Origin: a virus
IMG/VR virus record: IMGVR_UViG_3300035181_000718
Coordinates: 1-36,741 of that record
Strand: one strand, 5' to 3'
Length of the DNA stretch: 36,741 nucleotides
How positions within the stretch are numbered: position 1 is the first letter of the stretch; each line of letters opens with the position of its first letter. The translations under genes were made by a program, and so were the position numbers. The notes beneath the pieces were generated by a model, which was not told where the DNA came from, ran no database searches, and saw only the letters and a list, made by a program, of their open reading frames with translations. Of this stretch, positions 23,314 through 31,486 are shown in pieces.

Positions 23314-23952
23314 ATGGCAAAACCAATTGTAAGACCGAAGCAGTATTCCATCAAAGACGTCTATGCGGCGTATGTAAAAAAGTTACTTGATGCGCACCCT
23401 ACCTGGTGGGGGAAATACGAGAAACGCGTGAAGCGTAAAGATTGCTACATCTACGCCAAAGAGAATGGCAAAGTAGTATTGAAAATGAGCTGGTTTATCT
23501 GGAAAGATGTGATTGAAGTTTACTTCCATAAAGCCAAATACGCTATCATCCATGGAGAAACACTAAGACTGGGGGCTAACTTGGGAAAGATCAGAGGAGC
23601 CAGGATACAACGGGATTTCACCAAACCACTGGTCAACTGGCATGAGACGTTCAACGGAGAGAAAGGACCAGACGGTAAGTTGATCAAAGTCTTCCATACA
23701 GAGGACGACTACTGCAGAATTGAATGGGCTAAGTTTGGAATGATACCCAACGAGACCAATTATCACTTCAAACCTGCTGAGAAGAATATGGCCACCAGGA
23801 AGGGATTCAAGGCTGAGTTCTCCAAGGCACTCACTGATGACCCGCTACTTAAATTCAAATACAAGTACTACCCTATTATAAAGCGAATAAACAAACATCC
23901 GATACCATGCAATACCAGTACACCAGCCTTCGGGACGTCATTGGAAACGTAG
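23314..23952 (+). CDS. conserved virion protein (212 aa)
   Basis: 212 aa, very basic and aromatic (WGKYEKRVKRKDCYIYAK, FHKAKYAIIHGE, LLKFKYKYYPIIKR). The segment FGMIPNETNYHFKPA followed by KGFKAEFSKAL is characteristic of a crAss-like family near the ring genes. Function is unknown; DNA contact in the connector channel is a possible reading of its charge. It ends with TAG at 23950-23952 and its last 46 bp overlap the next gene in another frame. Confidence 0.6.
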   Translation: MAKPIVRPKQYSIKDVYAAYVKKLLDAHPTWWGKYEKRVKRKDCYIYAKENGKVVLKMSWFIWKDVIEVYFHKAKYAIIHGETLRLGANLGKIRGARIQRDFTKPLVNWHETFNGEKGPDGKLIKVFHTEDDYCRIEWAKFGMIPNETNYHFKPAEKNMATRKGFKAEFSKALTDDPLLKFKYKYYPIIKRINKHPIPCNTSTPAFGTSLET

Positions 23953-24776
23953 TACGTAATACGCGTATCCAGGACAGTTCCTTCATAGCCGACATTCATG
24001 AGTGGTTGTATGAAGCCATGGAACAACTGCAGACTCAGTTCTCTTTAGAAGGAAAATGGGAGCCGGTACAAATCAACTTCCACAAGGCTAAACTTCCCTG
24101 CGGCATGAAGTACCTGGATGGAGTTGAGTATGATGGACATAGACTAAGAGAGGGCGGTGGCGCCCGGCCTGCTGAAAGAGACAGGGCAGTGACTTATCTG
24201 GACAATTACTCAGCGTTCAATTCAGTAGTAGACAAGCAGACCTTTGATGGACACACCCTGTATGTAAGTAAACTACAGGACGTCAATGCCCTTCAATCAT
24301 GCACAGCAGGCGCCTATTACTACACGGACATGGGACACATCAATACTTCATTTTCAGATGGAAAAGTGATCCTGTACTACCGTGGCATCAAAACTGACGA
24401 AGATGGCTTTCCGATGATACCCGATAACCAAAACTACAAATCTGCACTCTACTGGTATTGTAGGGGGATGATGATCGGTGCCGGCTGGAAGGATACCATC
24501 TTCAAATTTGATTACTGCATACAGCAGTTCGAGATGCTCTACGGACCAAGAGCAATAGCTGAGATTCGTATGCCTTCTCCTGAGCAAATGGATAAACGCA
24601 TCAATACCTTTGTACGGTTCATCCCTCACCAGGGGTACTACGACAACTTCTTCTCTACACCAGGACCAGAAGGTACATTTGATACCCGCGGCTTTGGCCC
24701 TAATACAGGATTAAGCAGTGCCAACAGCAATACACAGCAGCCGTACATTGCAGGAACCAATCAACCACTCAGCTAA
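23907..24776 (+). CDS. tail adaptor protein, T7 gp11 / P22 gp4-like
   Basis: 289 aa. The N-terminus (YTSLRDVIGNVVRNTRIQDSSFIADIHEWLYEAMEQLQ) and the block GFPMIPDNQNYKSALYWYCRGMMIGAGW match crAss-like adaptor proteins that connect the portal to the tail, in the same structural role as T7 gp11. The C-terminal third is Gly/Asn/Pro-rich and probably extended. The start lies 46 bp inside the upstream gene, and its TAA overlaps the muzzle gene ATG (TAATG), pointing to coupling in tail assembly. Confidence 0.7.
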   Translation: MQYQYTSLRDVIGNVVRNTRIQDSSFIADIHEWLYEAMEQLQTQFSLEGKWEPVQINFHKAKLPCGMKYLDGVEYDGHRLREGGGARPAERDRAVTYLDNYSAFNSVVDKQTFDGHTLYVSKLQDVNALQSCTAGAYYYTDMGHINTSFSDGKVILYYRGIKTDEDGFPMIPDNQNYKSALYWYCRGMMIGAGWKDTIFKFDYCIQQFEMLYGPRAIAEIRMPSPEQMDKRINTFVRFIPHQGYYDNFFSTPGPEGTFDTRGFGPNTGLSSANSNTQQPYIAGTNQPLS

Positions 24777-27700
24777 TGCAGAAATTTAATAAACTTAGCA
24801 GAAACACCCGTCCCCAGGAACAACCCAAGGGGACGTACCCGTTTGGTAAGAACGGAGTACAGAACTACATTGAAGGAGCTACTCTCAATGAGATGGGCTT
24901 TGCCAAGTCTGCTGCAATACTACCTTACACTCAAATCGGTATCATTGAAACAGATAAGTACCCTGTTATTTTCAGCAGTAACAATGTTCACAGTGCTATC
25001 GGATACTTTGACGTGGACAATGACATTTACATCCCCAAATACGATGACGCGTCCCTCCCATTCAAACTTCCTTTTGATACCGATTTCTATATCACCGGAC
25101 AGGCCCAGCGGAACTACAAGGGAGAACTGGTAGTAGCATTCACAGATAAGAATGCCACTCCTTTCTATGTTAATATGGATACACCTATGGCCAACACCCT
25201 CAATGACCTAAAACTATTCCCCAATGCATTACCAGCAGATCTCACTATTGAAGTACAGGCTGGAGGTATCCTGTTACCCGGCGCTTATTACGCTGCACTA
25301 AAGTACACTAAGAAAGATGGAACGGAGACCAGTTACATCGCTGTAAGTGCACCTGCTGTTGTGAGTGGCACTACTGGACAGGCTACAGACAAAAGTCTTG
25401 AAATCACGCTTACTAACATAGATCCGGATTATGATTACGTACAGATAGCCATTGTAACCAAGATCAATGGCATATTATCAGCAGTACAGTTTCTTAATCC
25501 TATCCTCGCATCCGGCTCAATCACCATTGCCTACACAGGTACTGAAGTGACTGAACCAGTAACCTTGGAAGAAATACTTACTCCACGCAAGGTATACAAC
25601 AAAGTGGGTACCATGGGACAACTTAATGATGCCCTGTACATTGCTGACCTTGAGAGTCCACAGCAGATTCGGATGCAAAAGTGGGTTAATCTGATCCGAC
25701 TAAAGTGGCATTCTAAACTGATCACCGTAAATCCTGTCTATACTCCTATGTCAGAGGGTAAAGAGAAGAGTCACATGCATGGAGAAGTATACGCATGGTA
25801 CATACGTTTCAAGAAGACAGATGGCACCGTAACACAATCTTTTGTGATACCCGGAGAACCACTGGATTCCACAGACCGGCTCACCTCCCCCTTAGCTACA
25901 GCAGAAGGACTTACAGCTAAGAAGTTCCAGGTAGAAGATAGGATACCTTCATTTGACTATGCATCTAAAAGTGGCTACTTCGGTAAATGGGAGAATGCTT
26001 CTGAGAATTACCCCAACACAGATGACTTCAATTCATCTGCTGTAGGTGGAGAGGATCTGAGGGGCACTCCTGTTAGACACCACCGTTTCCCTTCTATTGC
26101 ATGGTGTAAGCAGAATCTGTTTATGGGTGAGCCCGATTACGGCCGTAACAGTTTAGATATGTTAGGCATCAGTCTGGAGAATGTAACTATACCTGCTGAA
26201 TATGCAGACCAGATAGTTGGCTGGGAACTGTTTTATGCCAAACGTAATGTGGCCAATTCTACTATCGTGGGACAGAGTCTCATGCTCAATGGTGCACGTA
26301 ACCAGGCTGAAACTGCACTATCCCCAAGTAATTACTATTCAACCGGAGGTAATTGGAACAGCTATATTGATTGGAAAAGTGGACCTGATTACCACCTATA
26401 TATGGACCAATCCATATTTCATTTCCATAGCTTTGACATGCTATTCAACAATCCCAGTGTAACACCTGACTATATTGATCTACAGCTAAAGCATTCCCGT
26501 GTGAACTTTCCTTATACGGGAGGTACTGTGGAAGATCAGTTGGTAACAGATTCCAACGATGGCCCAATGGTATTTGTACTGGACTACCTGCAAAAGGGGA
26601 TCTCACCAGTACTTCCCGCTAAACGCATCAAAGCAGTAGCTGATACTTCCTGGGTGCCAAACAATATTGAATACCTGAAGTGGCATAACAAAGGAATTGA
26701 ACGTTTCTTTGGTGGCAGATTTACACATCCTGAAGCACTCATTAGCTCCGGAGATGTATATGAGCTTACTGTTCAACCAGGTTCCCGTCATCCGTATACA
26801 GGGCCCGAGGCTCAACCTAAGTCTGAGACCTGTTTCCTGTCAAACATGATGTCGATCAAATCACAACTCTTTGTACCCTTCACTGCCCAGTCACTGGTAA
26901 GAGGGGGAAGCTCAAACACTGTGAACAATACCGAGATCTTCTACGGAGGAGACATTTACATCTGTGATTACTCCTTCCACACATACGGGTGGTTCGATAA
27001 TGAGAACCAGGTATCTCCTTACAATGGTATGTTCCAGGGAACCAAAGTAGTAAGACGCTTCATCTGTGAATGTGTGGCTAATCTTTATGCCCGCTATGAA
27101 GACCCTGCCAATCCATACAGCAGGTACTATCCGAAAAGTTCACTTACACCTAATGATAAGGACAATTACCTTACTAACTTCATGCGGGATATAGATCCTA
27201 ACCAGTTCGGCTATAAGAAGGACAGCAATGCACTGGATGATCTGTTTGCAACAGATATATTTAATACGTTCGCCGAGGACTTATACCTCCACCCATACAG
27301 GATACATCGAATGGGTAAACTGAGCCGGCAAACTAAAGTCCGTAATTGGAGAAGCTGCCTGCCACTGGATTACTACGAGATGCAGAAGAATATGGGCAAA
27401 CCTGTTCACCTGGAAGGTATGGATGACCGATTACTCATCCATTGTGAGAATGCCCTCTTCCGTACACAGGATAAAACCAAACTGGAAGCTGACATCATAT
27501 CCATCACACTTGGAAGTGGAGACATCTTCCAGTTTGAACCACAGGAAGCAAACTCAGCTCCCAGAGGGTATGCAGGGACACAGCATGACCTGGCCTGTGT
27601 ACGTACCCCAAATGGTTATATCTTTCTTGACTCCAAAGAAGGAAACATCTTCATCTACAAGGGACAGCTGGAGTTGATCAATAAAGAGATGAACGTATTC

Positions 27701-29968
27701 TTCAAAGAATACCTGCGAATGAAAGAGAATAATCCTTTTATTGGTAATGGCTACACTATTGGGTATGATCCTAAGTACAAGAGACTCCTGCTGACAGCTA
27801 AAGATGTGAGAGCCAATGCGGGCCTTATAGTAAACAACTACGATCCGGCTAACATCCTGACTTACTCTATAGGCGATCTGCTATTAAAGGACGGCAAGCT
27901 AGTACGGTTTCTTGGTGTCAATAGTACAGTCTATAACTGTGATGCTGCGCCGGTACCGGGGGTTCCCGACTTGGAACTGACTATCTCTGAAAACACTGCC
28001 GTTGGTACCCTCATAGGAACACTGGCAGGTTCTAACATTGTAAACTACTATATCACAGGCTCCTCGTCTCCCTTTGCCATTGACCCATCCACTGGTAAGG
28101 TTACAGTAGTGGGAAGCCTGGATTACTATACTCAATCTCTGTACACCTTCGCAGGTAAGGGGTTTGGCACAGCAGGAGACTTTGACGGGTTCACCCTGAT
28201 AGTTCACCTGACTTCAGTTAACCGTCCACCAGTGATACTGAACAATGAGGTAACTATCTCTGAGACTAATCTTGATGGTGACAGTGTAGCATTGATGGTG
28301 GCTACGGATCGTGAGGGAGATACACTTACTTTTGGCATCGCCGGAGGCAACACAGGTGGAACTTTCACTATCAACCCTGCAACAGGGGCTATCACCATTG
28401 CCGATCATACACAACTGGATGGCAATACCATTCCAACTTATGTGCTGGATATTACAGTCACTGATGGTACGACTCTGGTACACGGCACCTGTATTGTACA
28501 TATCACACCTGCTGATGGGGTAATTGTAATGCCAGATACTACTATCACCATTCCAGATACTACTCCATCACTAACTCCTGTAGTAACACTGGGACCGGCT
28601 CTGGTGAGAGAAGACTTGTCACTGACCTACACACTCATCTCTGAAAGTGTACCAGGAGTGTTCACAGTAGATCTAACTACACTGGTAATTACCCTTGTAA
28701 ACAATAGTTCACTTAATCCTATAGTTACCCCACAGTATCTATTACACATGAGTGTATCTGGCTCAGGTTTACCACCAGTACTCTTCACTGTGACCATCAA
28801 TGTGGAGTACACGAGGGGCTCAATTGGATTTTCACCAGCAGTCCCAAGTTGTCTCAGCGGTACTCCATCCTGTCCATCAGGGTATACACTATCCTCTGAT
28901 GGATCTGCTTGTGTAAAGACTACTACTACAGCTGCCACTATTATCAGTAGCGGAGGTTGTTTGGCGGCCAGCACTAACAGCGCCTATGGAAGTTACTTTG
29001 CCCGTATATACAAGCCAGGCTGGAATAACAGTTCCATTGAACTATTCACAGCCCCCACCAGTGACGTGTATGCAGAGATGAGTACTACTTACTGGAAAGG
29101 AAGGCCCAATGCCTGCGGTGTGTGGGTAGATAGTGATTGTAATGGAACACCGGACGCACTAACTGCAGGGGCACAGACTACCATCTCAGCTTACTATAAC
29201 AACACCGGCTCTGCCCGTACTGTGTACGTGGGTATCTTCGGAGACAATGAGTTTGAGCTGAAAGTGAATGGTGTACGTATTGCTATTACAGATGGACTGG
29301 GTACACACGAAAGCTTCAAGGTATTCCACATCTTTCCTGTAGACATTATCAATGGCGCCAACATCTTTAACGCGGTAGGTACCGGAGACGGCAGTGTCAA
29401 TGATTCCATCGGAATGATCATCTATGACAATACGCCTGCTACAATTCAGGCAGCAACTACTGATGCCGGAGTGACTATTCTTTATACCACTACCAGCATG
29501 ATCAATCAGCCCAATGTAGTAGCCACTTGTCCAAGCGGGTATGTACTGGACCTGACAGGTTCCCCTAGCTGTAAGAAGATTGAGACTGTTGTTCCTACAG
29601 GAGCTACCAATACCCGTCACTGGGATAAGGTGCAAATCAATGATCTGAGACATTCAACTATTATCAACATAGTGAACAATCAGCTTACTCCTATACTCAC
29701 TTTCCAGGATATGAATGTACCCTATTACCCGGACATTGCCAATCACATCGACTGTGGCGCTACAGTGGTAACCTATCTCAGTGCAGCAGCCTCAGGGACT
29801 GTACAGAAGAATGATTGCACCACTGGTGTAGGCTCTGTAGTTACATACACAGTTCCACAGGGAACATACATGTCCATCGTCTCCCAAGCTGCAGCAGATG
29901 CGCTGGCCGTAGCAGATGTGGCTGCCAATAAACAAACTTACGCTAACACTAAAGGAACTTGTAGCTAA
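24776..29968 (+). CDS. muzzle/stabilisation protein, N-terminal part, with cadherin-like and DUF5977 modules
   Basis: 1730 aa. Residues about 1-1030 resemble the crAss-like muzzle (T7 gp12-like, propeller) that closes the tail: PFGKNGVQNYIEGATLNEMGFA at the start and GYTIGYDPKYKRLLLTAK near residue 1000. Then come about three cadherin-like units (1060-1345; ISENTAVGTLIGT, RPPVILNNEVTISETN). Two CPSGY...C stretches flank a beta-sandwich-like region with DSDCNGTPD (1452-1460). A DUF5977-type module ends the protein (VVTYTVPQGTYMSIVSQAAA ... YANTKGTC). The usual muzzle C-terminal domain is missing here and appears in the next gene. The stop overlaps that gene as TAATG. Confidence 0.75.
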   Translation: MQKFNKLSRNTRPQEQPKGTYPFGKNGVQNYIEGATLNEMGFAKSAAILPYTQIGIIETDKYPVIFSSNNVHSAIGYFDVDNDIYIPKYDDASLPFKLPFDTDFYITGQAQRNYKGELVVAFTDKNATPFYVNMDTPMANTLNDLKLFPNALPADLTIEVQAGGILLPGAYYAALKYTKKDGTETSYIAVSAPAVVSGTTGQATDKSLEITLTNIDPDYDYVQIAIVTKINGILSAVQFLNPILASGSITIAYTGTEVTEPVTLEEILTPRKVYNKVGTMGQLNDALYIADLESPQQIRMQKWVNLIRLKWHSKLITVNPVYTPMSEGKEKSHMHGEVYAWYIRFKKTDGTVTQSFVIPGEPLDSTDRLTSPLATAEGLTAKKFQVEDRIPSFDYASKSGYFGKWENASENYPNTDDFNSSAVGGEDLRGTPVRHHRFPSIAWCKQNLFMGEPDYGRNSLDMLGISLENVTIPAEYADQIVGWELFYAKRNVANSTIVGQSLMLNGARNQAETALSPSNYYSTGGNWNSYIDWKSGPDYHLYMDQSIFHFHSFDMLFNNPSVTPDYIDLQLKHSRVNFPYTGGTVEDQLVTDSNDGPMVFVLDYLQKGISPVLPAKRIKAVADTSWVPNNIEYLKWHNKGIERFFGGRFTHPEALISSGDVYELTVQPGSRHPYTGPEAQPKSETCFLSNMMSIKSQLFVPFTAQSLVRGGSSNTVNNTEIFYGGDIYICDYSFHTYGWFDNENQVSPYNGMFQGTKVVRRFICECVANLYARYEDPANPYSRYYPKSSLTPNDKDNYLTNFMRDIDPNQFGYKKDSNALDDLFATDIFNTFAEDLYLHPYRIHRMGKLSRQTKVRNWRSCLPLDYYEMQKNMGKPVHLEGMDDRLLIHCENALFRTQDKTKLEADIISITLGSGDIFQFEPQEANSAPRGYAGTQHDLACVRTPNGYIFLDSKEGNIFIYKGQLELINKEMNVFFKEYLRMKENNPFIGNGYTIGYDPKYKRLLLTAKDVRANAGLIVNNYDPANILTYSIGDLLLKDGKLVRFLGVNSTVYNCDAAPVPGVPDLELTISENTAVGTLIGTLAGSNIVNYYITGSSSPFAIDPSTGKVTVVGSLDYYTQSLYTFAGKGFGTAGDFDGFTLIVHLTSVNRPPVILNNEVTISETNLDGDSVALMVATDREGDTLTFGIAGGNTGGTFTINPATGAITIADHTQLDGNTIPTYVLDITVTDGTTLVHGTCIVHITPADGVIVMPDTTITIPDTTPSLTPVVTLGPALVREDLSLTYTLISESVPGVFTVDLTTLVITLVNNSSLNPIVTPQYLLHMSVSGSGLPPVLFTVTINVEYTRGSIGFSPAVPSCLSGTPSCPSGYTLSSDGSACVKTTTTAATIISSGGCLAASTNSAYGSYFARIYKPGWNNSSIELFTAPTSDVYAEMSTTYWKGRPNACGVWVDSDCNGTPDALTAGAQTTISAYYNNTGSARTVYVGIFGDNEFELKVNGVRIAITDGLGTHESFKVFHIFPVDIINGANIFNAVGTGDGSVNDSIGMIIYDNTPATIQAATTDAGVTILYTTTSMINQPNVVATCPSGYVLDLTGSPSCKKIETVVPTGATNTRHWDKVQINDLRHSTIINIVNNQLTPILTFQDMNVPYYPDIANHIDCGATVVTYLSAAASGTVQKNDCTTGVGSVVTYTVPQGTYMSIVSQAAADALAVADVAANKQTYANTKGTCS

Positions 29969-30723
29969 TGAACGGATGTACTAACCCCAAAGCCAAGAAT
30001 TATAATCCGTCTGCTGATGTAGACGATGGGAGTTGCATTTACCTCGAGAAGGTAGATGGTATCTGCTATGCATTTCAGGATGCAGAACTGGATGCCCAAA
30101 TTGATAAATCCTATACACTTTCCTTCTCACTGGACGGTGGAGGCTGGGTATTCTTTCATGACTACCTGCCGGACTTCTACTTCTCAACAAAAACTCAATT
30201 GTATAATCTGAAAAACAGATCTATATATAAACATCATACTGGTAATCCTGGTGTCTTTCATGATGTAGCTATCAAACCCTTCTTTATTGACGCAGTATTC
30301 ACTGCTGACAGTGAGATGATCCTTGACAGTGTGCAGTGGATGAGTGAAGTCTTCAATGACAGACAGGAACTGGAATTTGCTACACTGACACATATTACCA
30401 TCTGGAACAATCAACAGTGTACTGGACGCATTCCACTGGATCAGGTATTCGATAACCTGGAGTATATCACCAGAAAGACACAATCTATATGGAGCTTCAG
30501 TTCCTTCAAAGACATGCTTGCTGTATATGGAACCCAGTTTCTGCTTGACATATTCCATAACTTCGCTGTAGATGATGTGGCTATAGATTTGGATAAGCCT
30601 TGGTTCGACCAGGATCTTATTCATGATAGCTTCTTTATCATACGGTTAGAGTTCGATAATTCATCCGGAAAACAATTCGTACTGCACGGAGCAGACATCA
30701 ACGCAGATAAATCTTATAGGTAA
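29968..30723 (+). CDS. detached muzzle C-terminal domain with GCTNP motif
   Basis: 251 aa. The first ~26 residues are a GCTNPKAKNYNPSAD...DDGSC unit, a motif common in Bacteroidota surface proteins. After a spacer, SYTLSFSLDGGGWVFFHDYLPDFYF, the NRSIYKHH segment and FFIDAVFTAD match what I know as the C-terminal part of crAss-like muzzle proteins, as does the later THITIWNNQQCTGRI. It would complete the truncated 1730-aa protein. Start and upstream stop overlap (TAATG). It probably assembles with the upstream product. Confidence 0.65.
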   Translation: MNGCTNPKAKNYNPSADVDDGSCIYLEKVDGICYAFQDAELDAQIDKSYTLSFSLDGGGWVFFHDYLPDFYFSTKTQLYNLKNRSIYKHHTGNPGVFHDVAIKPFFIDAVFTADSEMILDSVQWMSEVFNDRQELEFATLTHITIWNNQQCTGRIPLDQVFDNLEYITRKTQSIWSFSSFKDMLAVYGTQFLLDIFHNFAVDDVAIDLDKPWFDQDLIHDSFFIIRLEFDNSSGKQFVLHGADINADKSYR

Positions 30724-30724
30724 A

Positions 30725-31486
30725 ATGGCTACACTGAGCAAACGATATAAGAAATACGCAGTCGGTGGATTCACTGATGCTGAAATGGCAACAGGAATTG
30801 GCCAGGCCGGTTCACTGGTTGGTAGTTTAACTGACTCACTGGGACCTGCTGATCAATACGGCAAACGTACCATGGGAGCCAATCTCGTGAGTAGTGTAGG
30901 TAAGGGTGCGGCCATGGGAGCTAACTTCGGCCCACTCGGTGCTGGCATTGGCGCTGGAGCAGGATTGATTGCAGGCTTTCTATCTAATAAGTCTCAGGCA
31001 GAACAGGCTTCCAGATTGAAAAATGAAGAACAGAGACGTAATACTCTTCTCAATCAACAGCAGGCGTCAGCACGCATTGCCACTGATCCTACATTGGTAC
31101 GTGGTAACACTGCTACCCTAATGAACGGTTACTATGCAGCAGGCGGACCACTCAATGTATCCAATCAACAAACTGAAGGAGGTACTGCCACTCCACTCAA
31201 TTCACAGGCAGCAGAATTCAATGGACCACCGCATGAGCAAGGAGGAATACAGATACCAGGCATGGGCGCTGAAGTGGAGGGCAATGAGACTACTAACGGA
31301 AGTTATGTATTCTCCGACCGTCTCGGATTTGCTGCACTACATAAGCCGATAGCAAAAGCTATTGGTAAGATTGAACACAAGCCATTGAGTCCTGAAAGAG
31401 TAAACAGTCTGAAACTGCTGAAGGAGAAAGAGAATCAATTGAAACTATCCCAGGAGTACACCAAGCACATGCTGGGTTTAAATTAA
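30725..31486 (+). CDS. glycine-rich internal virion (cargo) protein
   Basis: 253 aa. A KYAVGG segment near the N-terminus, then a glycine-zipper-like hydrophobic stretch (GAAMGANFGPLGAGIGAGAGLIAGFL, about residues 60-85) able to insert in a membrane, then a helix. The block HEQGGIQIPGMGAEVEGNETTNGSYVFSDRLGF (about 173-205) is shared by many Bacteroidota phage virion proteins. crAss-like capsids carry cargo proteins ejected with the DNA, which suits this position. A YYAAGG motif recurs in the middle. Confidence 0.65.
   Translation: MATLSKRYKKYAVGGFTDAEMATGIGQAGSLVGSLTDSLGPADQYGKRTMGANLVSSVGKGAAMGANFGPLGAGIGAGAGLIAGFLSNKSQAEQASRLKNEEQRRNTLLNQQQASARIATDPTLVRGNTATLMNGYYAAGGPLNVSNQQTEGGTATPLNSQAAEFNGPPHEQGGIQIPGMGAEVEGNETTNGSYVFSDRLGFAALHKPIAKAIGKIEHKPLSPERVNSLKLLKEKENQLKLSQEYTKHMLGLN

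Follow-up and report, generated by a model that had tools for sequence, protein, structure and literature searches.

Two neighbouring reading frames of a crAss-like phage as the probable two chains of one muzzle protein, with surface-type modules at the break

We analysed a stretch of viral DNA of 36,741 nucleotides (IMG/VR record IMGVR_UViG_3300035181_000718, here referred to as the window) in which the muzzle is encoded by two open reading frames. Very probably these are two chains of one crAss-type muzzle, which would build a single propeller together, with a series of modules hung at the break between them. The structural block of the window contains, in order, terminase, portal and major head protein (by PHROG) and then ring protein 1 and muzzle (by Pfam), a gene order that identifies the phage as a member of Crassvirales (crAss-like phages). 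Chain 1 matches Pfam crAss_MUZ (1.8e-13, 50 bits against a cut-off of 27), and judged from its sequence the window muzzle is a variant of this family, made of two polypeptides instead of one. The features are as follows; L numbers here and below are loci fetched for comparison.

23907..24776, + strand: gene for tail-barrel ring protein 1 (Pfam CrAss_Ring_1, 4.7e-38), with the muzzle directly downstream
24776..29968, + strand: muzzle chain 1, 1730 aa (open reading frame; crAss_MUZ, phrog_15100)
24776..27802, + strand: muzzle core of chain 1, aa 1-1009, last strand YDPKYKRLLLT (alignment with 10 relatives, 37-55% identity)
27803..27949, + strand: junction unit of chain 1 (IGDLLLKDGKLVRFLGVNSTVYNC), with the Cys1055 codon at 27938-27940 (conserved in split relatives)
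27971..28504, + strand: cadherin-like domains, aa 1066-1243 (Pfam Cadherin, 8.9e-15, two stretches)
28844..29605, + strand: Cys-rich cEGF-like piece and beta-rich module, family unassigned, aa 1357-1610 (blastp to L013)
29774..29965, + strand: DUF5977 stalk domain, aa 1667-1730 (Pfam DUF5977, 1.2e-21, full length), exactly ending chain 1
29966..29970, + strand: TAATG stop/start overlap (TAA 29966-29968, ATG 29968-29970)
29968..30723, + strand: muzzle chain 2, 251 aa (open reading frame; phrog_15100 positions 1531-1680)
29968..30105, + strand: head of chain 2, with the GCTNP unit (Cys4/Cys23) and a third cysteine, Cys33 (codon 30064-30066) (alignments)
30106..30720, + strand: muzzle C-terminal domain, with the second half of a propeller blade (YTLSFSL / WVFFHDYLP), the last blade and the ring-joining region (alignments, L012 model, fold match)

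PHROG 15100 is one profile of 1783 positions, of which chain 1 matches 13-480 (7e-32) and chain 2 matches 1531-1680 (2.7e-7). Since they match opposite ends of this profile, the two reading frames are the two ends of one known protein. Chain 2 has no Pfam match of its own, and NCBIfam gave no match for either reading frame of the window or for two relatives. The preliminary description had reported a 1730-aa reading frame and a separate C-terminal gene behind TAATG; both frames and their stop/start overlap were verified, and the WxxxHDYxP domain (here WVFFHDYLP) and the GCTNP unit were also located in chain 2. Its boundary for the muzzle-like part, about residue 1030, has to be moved, since the core ends at about residue 1009 and is followed by a conserved junction unit. 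The gene after chain 2 (window 30725-31486) has a conserved C-terminal motif, HEQGGIQIPGMGAEVEGNETTNGSYVFSDRLGFAALHKPIAKAIGKIE, which is present at the same place in L001, L002 and L009.

The position of the break was determined from relatives in which the muzzle is a single chain. In these, the two muzzle segments are separated by 6 residues (L023, L024), 10 residues (L048) or 13 residues (gut crassvirus cr127_1). For example, the core-ending strand of L023, GWDNRFKRVFMTIKN, is followed after a few residues by LTMSYTMYSKAWVFFHDYAP; the equivalent gap of the window is occupied by about 720 residues and, beyond them, by a stop and a start codon and the GCTNP head. Because the single chains join both segments by only 6-13 residues, the modules and the split of the window fall exactly at that point. 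Moreover, the profile of the single-chain relatives matches phicrAss001 gp44 at 959-1306 (5.3e-14) and runs through the break hairpin. The Ig2/crass part of gp44, residues 318-1021, is inserted into blade 3 (PMC10172136), so the later blades of gp44 come after this part. The gp44 alignment and a read-through model of L012 point to a hairpin inside one propeller blade as the most likely place of the break, and counted on gp44 the broken blade would be blade 6. In propellers, the b-c and d-a loops lie by convention on the same face, and from this convention we infer the face toward which the modules point.

The two halves of L012 share a frame, so its stop could be read through to give one fold. 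The model comprises the C-terminus of chain 1 and chain 2 of this relative, not the window pair, and the N-terminal blades are absent from it. Two strands from chain 1 (169-175 and 180-186) and two from chain 2 (360-366 and 369-375) are ordered as one four-stranded blade, and the late-blade strands of both chains mostly have a pLDDT of about 75-89. The best Foldseek matches are 7qok and 7qol (8e-10, TM 0.40), and alignment to gp44 with VIA-align gave Z 15.1 over 300 residues, with model residues 30-591 corresponding to gp44 292-1371. The next-best matches are other podophage nozzles (GP4, Pa223, SU10, Pan3 and T7, Z 8-12). The overall pLDDT (60.9) and the TM value are lowered by the Fn3-like tail, the head and the N-terminal part, each either poorly modelled or missing. 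On this model, built from the L012 read-through chain rather than the window pair, the late blades are predicted to have the propeller/nozzle fold.

Chain 2 alone models poorly (pLDDT 53), which may simply reflect a shallow alignment; at such low confidence, a match in fold to gp44 (Z 7.6) is left out of the main evidence. A search of PDB sequences with a profile built from the four closest chain 2 sequences found no match. The C-terminal domain of chain 2 is strongly conserved in the alignment with relatives, and among the fetched split loci it occurs once per locus, with no second copy seen in any of them. The GCTNP/GCTDP cysteine unit is also found in a structural protein of the cyanomyovirus S-CAM4 (L005:5596-7080), so it looks like a mobile unit. 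A match of S-CAM4 covering 92% of chain 2 was rejected as a muzzle relative, since it rests on the GCTDP unit and the remainder is not the muzzle domain.

In chain 1, the junction unit of about 48 aa lies between core and modules, is common to the split relatives and forms a hairpin in the L012 model (pLDDT 79-89). The modules past the core had been described as about 700 residues of cadherin-like, Cys-rich and DUF5977 units. They in fact amount to about 720 aa, and the cadherin and DUF5977 assignments are significant, while the cEGF match of the Cys-rich piece is weak (1.2e-4, under the Pfam cut-off). The cadherin-like part resembles CELSR1 and cadherin-23 chains and is followed by a further beta repeat, to about aa 1345. 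The module at aa 1357-1610 is common to the window and L013 (35% over 286 aa, 4e-42, blastp), and a search by sequence for a solved structural relative of aa 1385-1634 found none. Among the modules of chain 1, Pfam recognises stalk-type domains and no known adhesive domain; the families listed as stalk domains of fibrillar adhesins include DUF5977 (PMC8286594). Judging by the names of these domains, the modules are most likely stalk and binding arms at the tail tip.

Profiles were then used to locate both chains in the fetched loci. The split is present in the window and in 19 other distinct viral contigs (L010-L020, L030, L033, L038, L040, L045, L046, L050 and L051), not counting the near-copies L021, L022 and L034, and also in a Bacteroidetes MAG contig, L052. 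Among these environmental phages it recurs down to about 40% identity, with the ends of both chains conserved. A pattern that recurs in 19 viral contigs and in one from a MAG is neither chance nor an assembly error. Close relatives with the HDYxP domain inside a homologue of the 1730-aa protein were looked for, and the nearest ones (L046, L052, L010 and L011) are split too. Single-chain muzzles are found in L023, L024, L048, L049, L070, L071, cr127_1, Fpv1, FpV4, Leptolyngbya phage Lbo-JY46 and Cellulophaga phi17:2, and 'Rudgehvirus jaberico' has a weak C-domain match (2e-5) in the same reading frame as the core. We found no report of a split muzzle in the literature searched, and the named phages that were inspected carry a single gene.

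In L038, L040 and L046 the halves are separated by one gene (of 107, 1313 and 180 aa, respectively); in every other split contig they are adjacent or less than 100 bases apart. The frame offset between the halves is 2 in most contigs, 1 in L013 and L014, and 0 in L012. The modules are exchanged between members. Cadherin repeats are common to the window, L010, L014 and L046, and chain 1 ends in DUF5977 in the window, L010 and L014. L013 has the aa 1357-1610 module and no cadherin match, and L012 has one Fn3-like domain, under the Pfam cut-off. The tails of chain 1 are short in L012 and L019, and L033 (two contigs) is split without any module.

Several loci deserve separate mention. The gene between the muzzle halves of L040 (L040:11656-15597) encodes 1313 aa with 15 DUF5977 repeats and an SprB repeat, and by its repeats the product is a phage-borne, fibrillar-adhesin-like protein. 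L052 (JACPEA010000007.1) is a 233,651-base contig of a groundwater Bacteroidetes MAG, with 59% identity to the window in chain 2; its setting may be a prophage, a large phage or a binning error. In the far relatives L050 (3395-10804) and L051, chain 1 is about 2470 aa long and carries very long insertions ahead of the late blades; both loci also have a split of their own. Lbo-JY46 (L073, PP438436.1), whose host is cyanobacterial, encodes the core and the C-domain of a crAss-type muzzle in a single chain. L027:7001-11467 was considered as a case without chain 2 and rejected: its chain 1 runs out of frame and is followed by DNA of foreign appearance, so the contig is probably chimeric or damaged.

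A cysteine at the end of the chain 1 junction unit and a third cysteine in chain 2, beyond the GCTNP pair, are present in 18 of 19 split pairs; in the nineteenth, L033, both are lost, a single joint loss on the tree. This pattern is suggestive, and the conserved pair is a candidate for an interchain disulfide.

In a tree of the late blades and C-domain, the single-chain L023 and L048 nest within the split clade, and the same nesting was obtained with nearly the whole core and the C-domain. On the latter tree a single split clade is rejected (AU 2e-41, with the group named beforehand and a simple model), and separate trees of the two flanks concur with weaker support. With two single-chain relatives nested among split ones in these trees, the fission has been undone or repeated, although recombination between phages may also produce such a pattern. 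Both end units are common to the split members of the main clade, which makes a single fission followed by at least two refusions likelier than many separate fissions. Among the close kin L012, L033 and L048, the cassette is full, decayed and absent, respectively. L050 and L051 have a different junction and lack the GCTNP head, and look like a second fission. When the joined tail and head units were compared with the hairpin units of L049-L051, L051 scored 14.3 bits and L050 9.3, against 9.3 for the best shuffled control, so a homology of these units is a weak lead.

The preliminary description had proposed an insertion followed by fission. Both events are supported by the short joints of the single chains, but their order may have been different, given the insert-free single chains inside the split clade and the module-less L033. 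The reverse order, with fission first in a small hairpin unit and modules accreted later, is compatible with the two-chain muzzle and is a serious contender, though we would not quite bet on it. The split pairs of the main clade have the same two end units with differing modules, L033 is split without modules, and the tails of L012 and L019 are short; however, the single chain of Fpv1 already has about 230 aa at the site, and L033, with a degenerate spacer and both cysteines gone, resembles secondary decay.

Other explanations would deny the two-chain muzzle itself. Since the two frames are ends of one known protein, the true protein might be one chain, interrupted here by gene decay or by an error in sequencing or assembly. 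We regard this as practically negligible: the split is shared by 19 further viral contigs, all distinct, down to about 40% identity, and the ends of both chains are conserved. A full-length fusion by programmed frameshifting or stop read-through, for which TAATG or ATGA overlaps in several members bring the frames close, is very improbable: the frame relation varies among members, the halves of L038, L040 and L046 are separated by entire genes, and a complete DUF5977 ends chain 1 in the window, L010 and L014. Somewhat less remote, yet still unlikely, is that chain 2 is an independent adhesin descended from the muzzle C-terminus, chain 1 closing the propeller alone. Chain 2 does carry its own GCTNP unit, which also occurs in a cyanophage structural protein. 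Chain 1, however, lacks the second half of the blade, and the C-domain is strongly conserved, is found once per fetched split locus with no other copy seen, and forms part of one continuous chain in L023 and L048, which nest in the split clade.

We therefore prefer the two-chain muzzle. The muzzle, the closed tip of the short tail, would be formed by both chains. The Ig and crass domains, the gate, the first blades of the propeller and two strands of the late blade would come from chain 1, which would then continue through the junction unit into modules of bacterial-surface type that form a free tail. As the break is a hairpin within one blade, chain 2 most likely completes the propeller and its ring-joining end: it would contribute the two strands missing from the blade as well as the last blade, and would dock on the tail barrel by the ring-joining end. 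Since chain 2 would supply the missing parts and the genes are neighbours, mostly overlapping, the chains are expected in about equal amounts, presumably as a hexamer of pairs. With the break at a b-c hairpin, the modules could be long and exchangeable without disturbing the propeller. The earlier term 'two-chain adhesin' is not supported, since chain 2 is a muzzle half-blade with the ring-joining end and adds only the GCTNP head, and it is chain 1 that bears the adhesin-type modules; we replace the term by 'two-chain muzzle with an adhesin-like arm on chain 1'. A bolder idea, which we consider doubtful, is a reversible design in which a disulfide between Cys1055 of chain 1 and Cys33 of chain 2 staples the shared blade, and binding by the module arm pulls or loosens this blade and helps to trigger gate opening; it would have arisen at least twice (main clade, L050/L051) and been undone at least twice (L023, L048).

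A natural break across a beta-propeller blade of a virion protein, stable in a clade and apparently reversible, offers a test case for split-protein assembly with fixed stoichiometry. Among known systems, the Bacteroidota fibrillar adhesins, with DUF5977 stalks and cadherin-like repeats, have the same module types as chain 1, whereas in the window these belong to a phage tail protein that lacks a cell anchor and any recognised adhesive domain. The nozzles of T7 type (gp12) and of other podophages (GP4, Pa223, SU10, Pan3) share the propeller and ring-joining architecture matched by the L012 read-through model, but they are single chains without a crass domain (established knowledge; PMC10172136). 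The muzzle of Flavobacterium phage Fpv1 (phrog_15100) is extended at the break hairpin, with additional residues between the two corresponding strands; however, the Fpv1 (1783 aa) and FpV4 (1961 aa) muzzles are single-chain, and cadherin and DUF5977 are absent from Fpv1. The closest known structure is phicrAss001 gp44 (7qok, 7qol; crAss_MUZ, crAss_MUZ_C), in which the order of core segments, the blade hairpin and the C-terminal region are as here, but which is a single chain of 1371 aa with no modules in the break hairpin, where the window has two chains and modules. The authors of the gp44 study place the length variation of muzzles in the crass and IG2 regions (PMC10172136); the tail-tip break would be a further site, beyond fibres and the crass domain, at which crAss-like phages swap host-facing modules.
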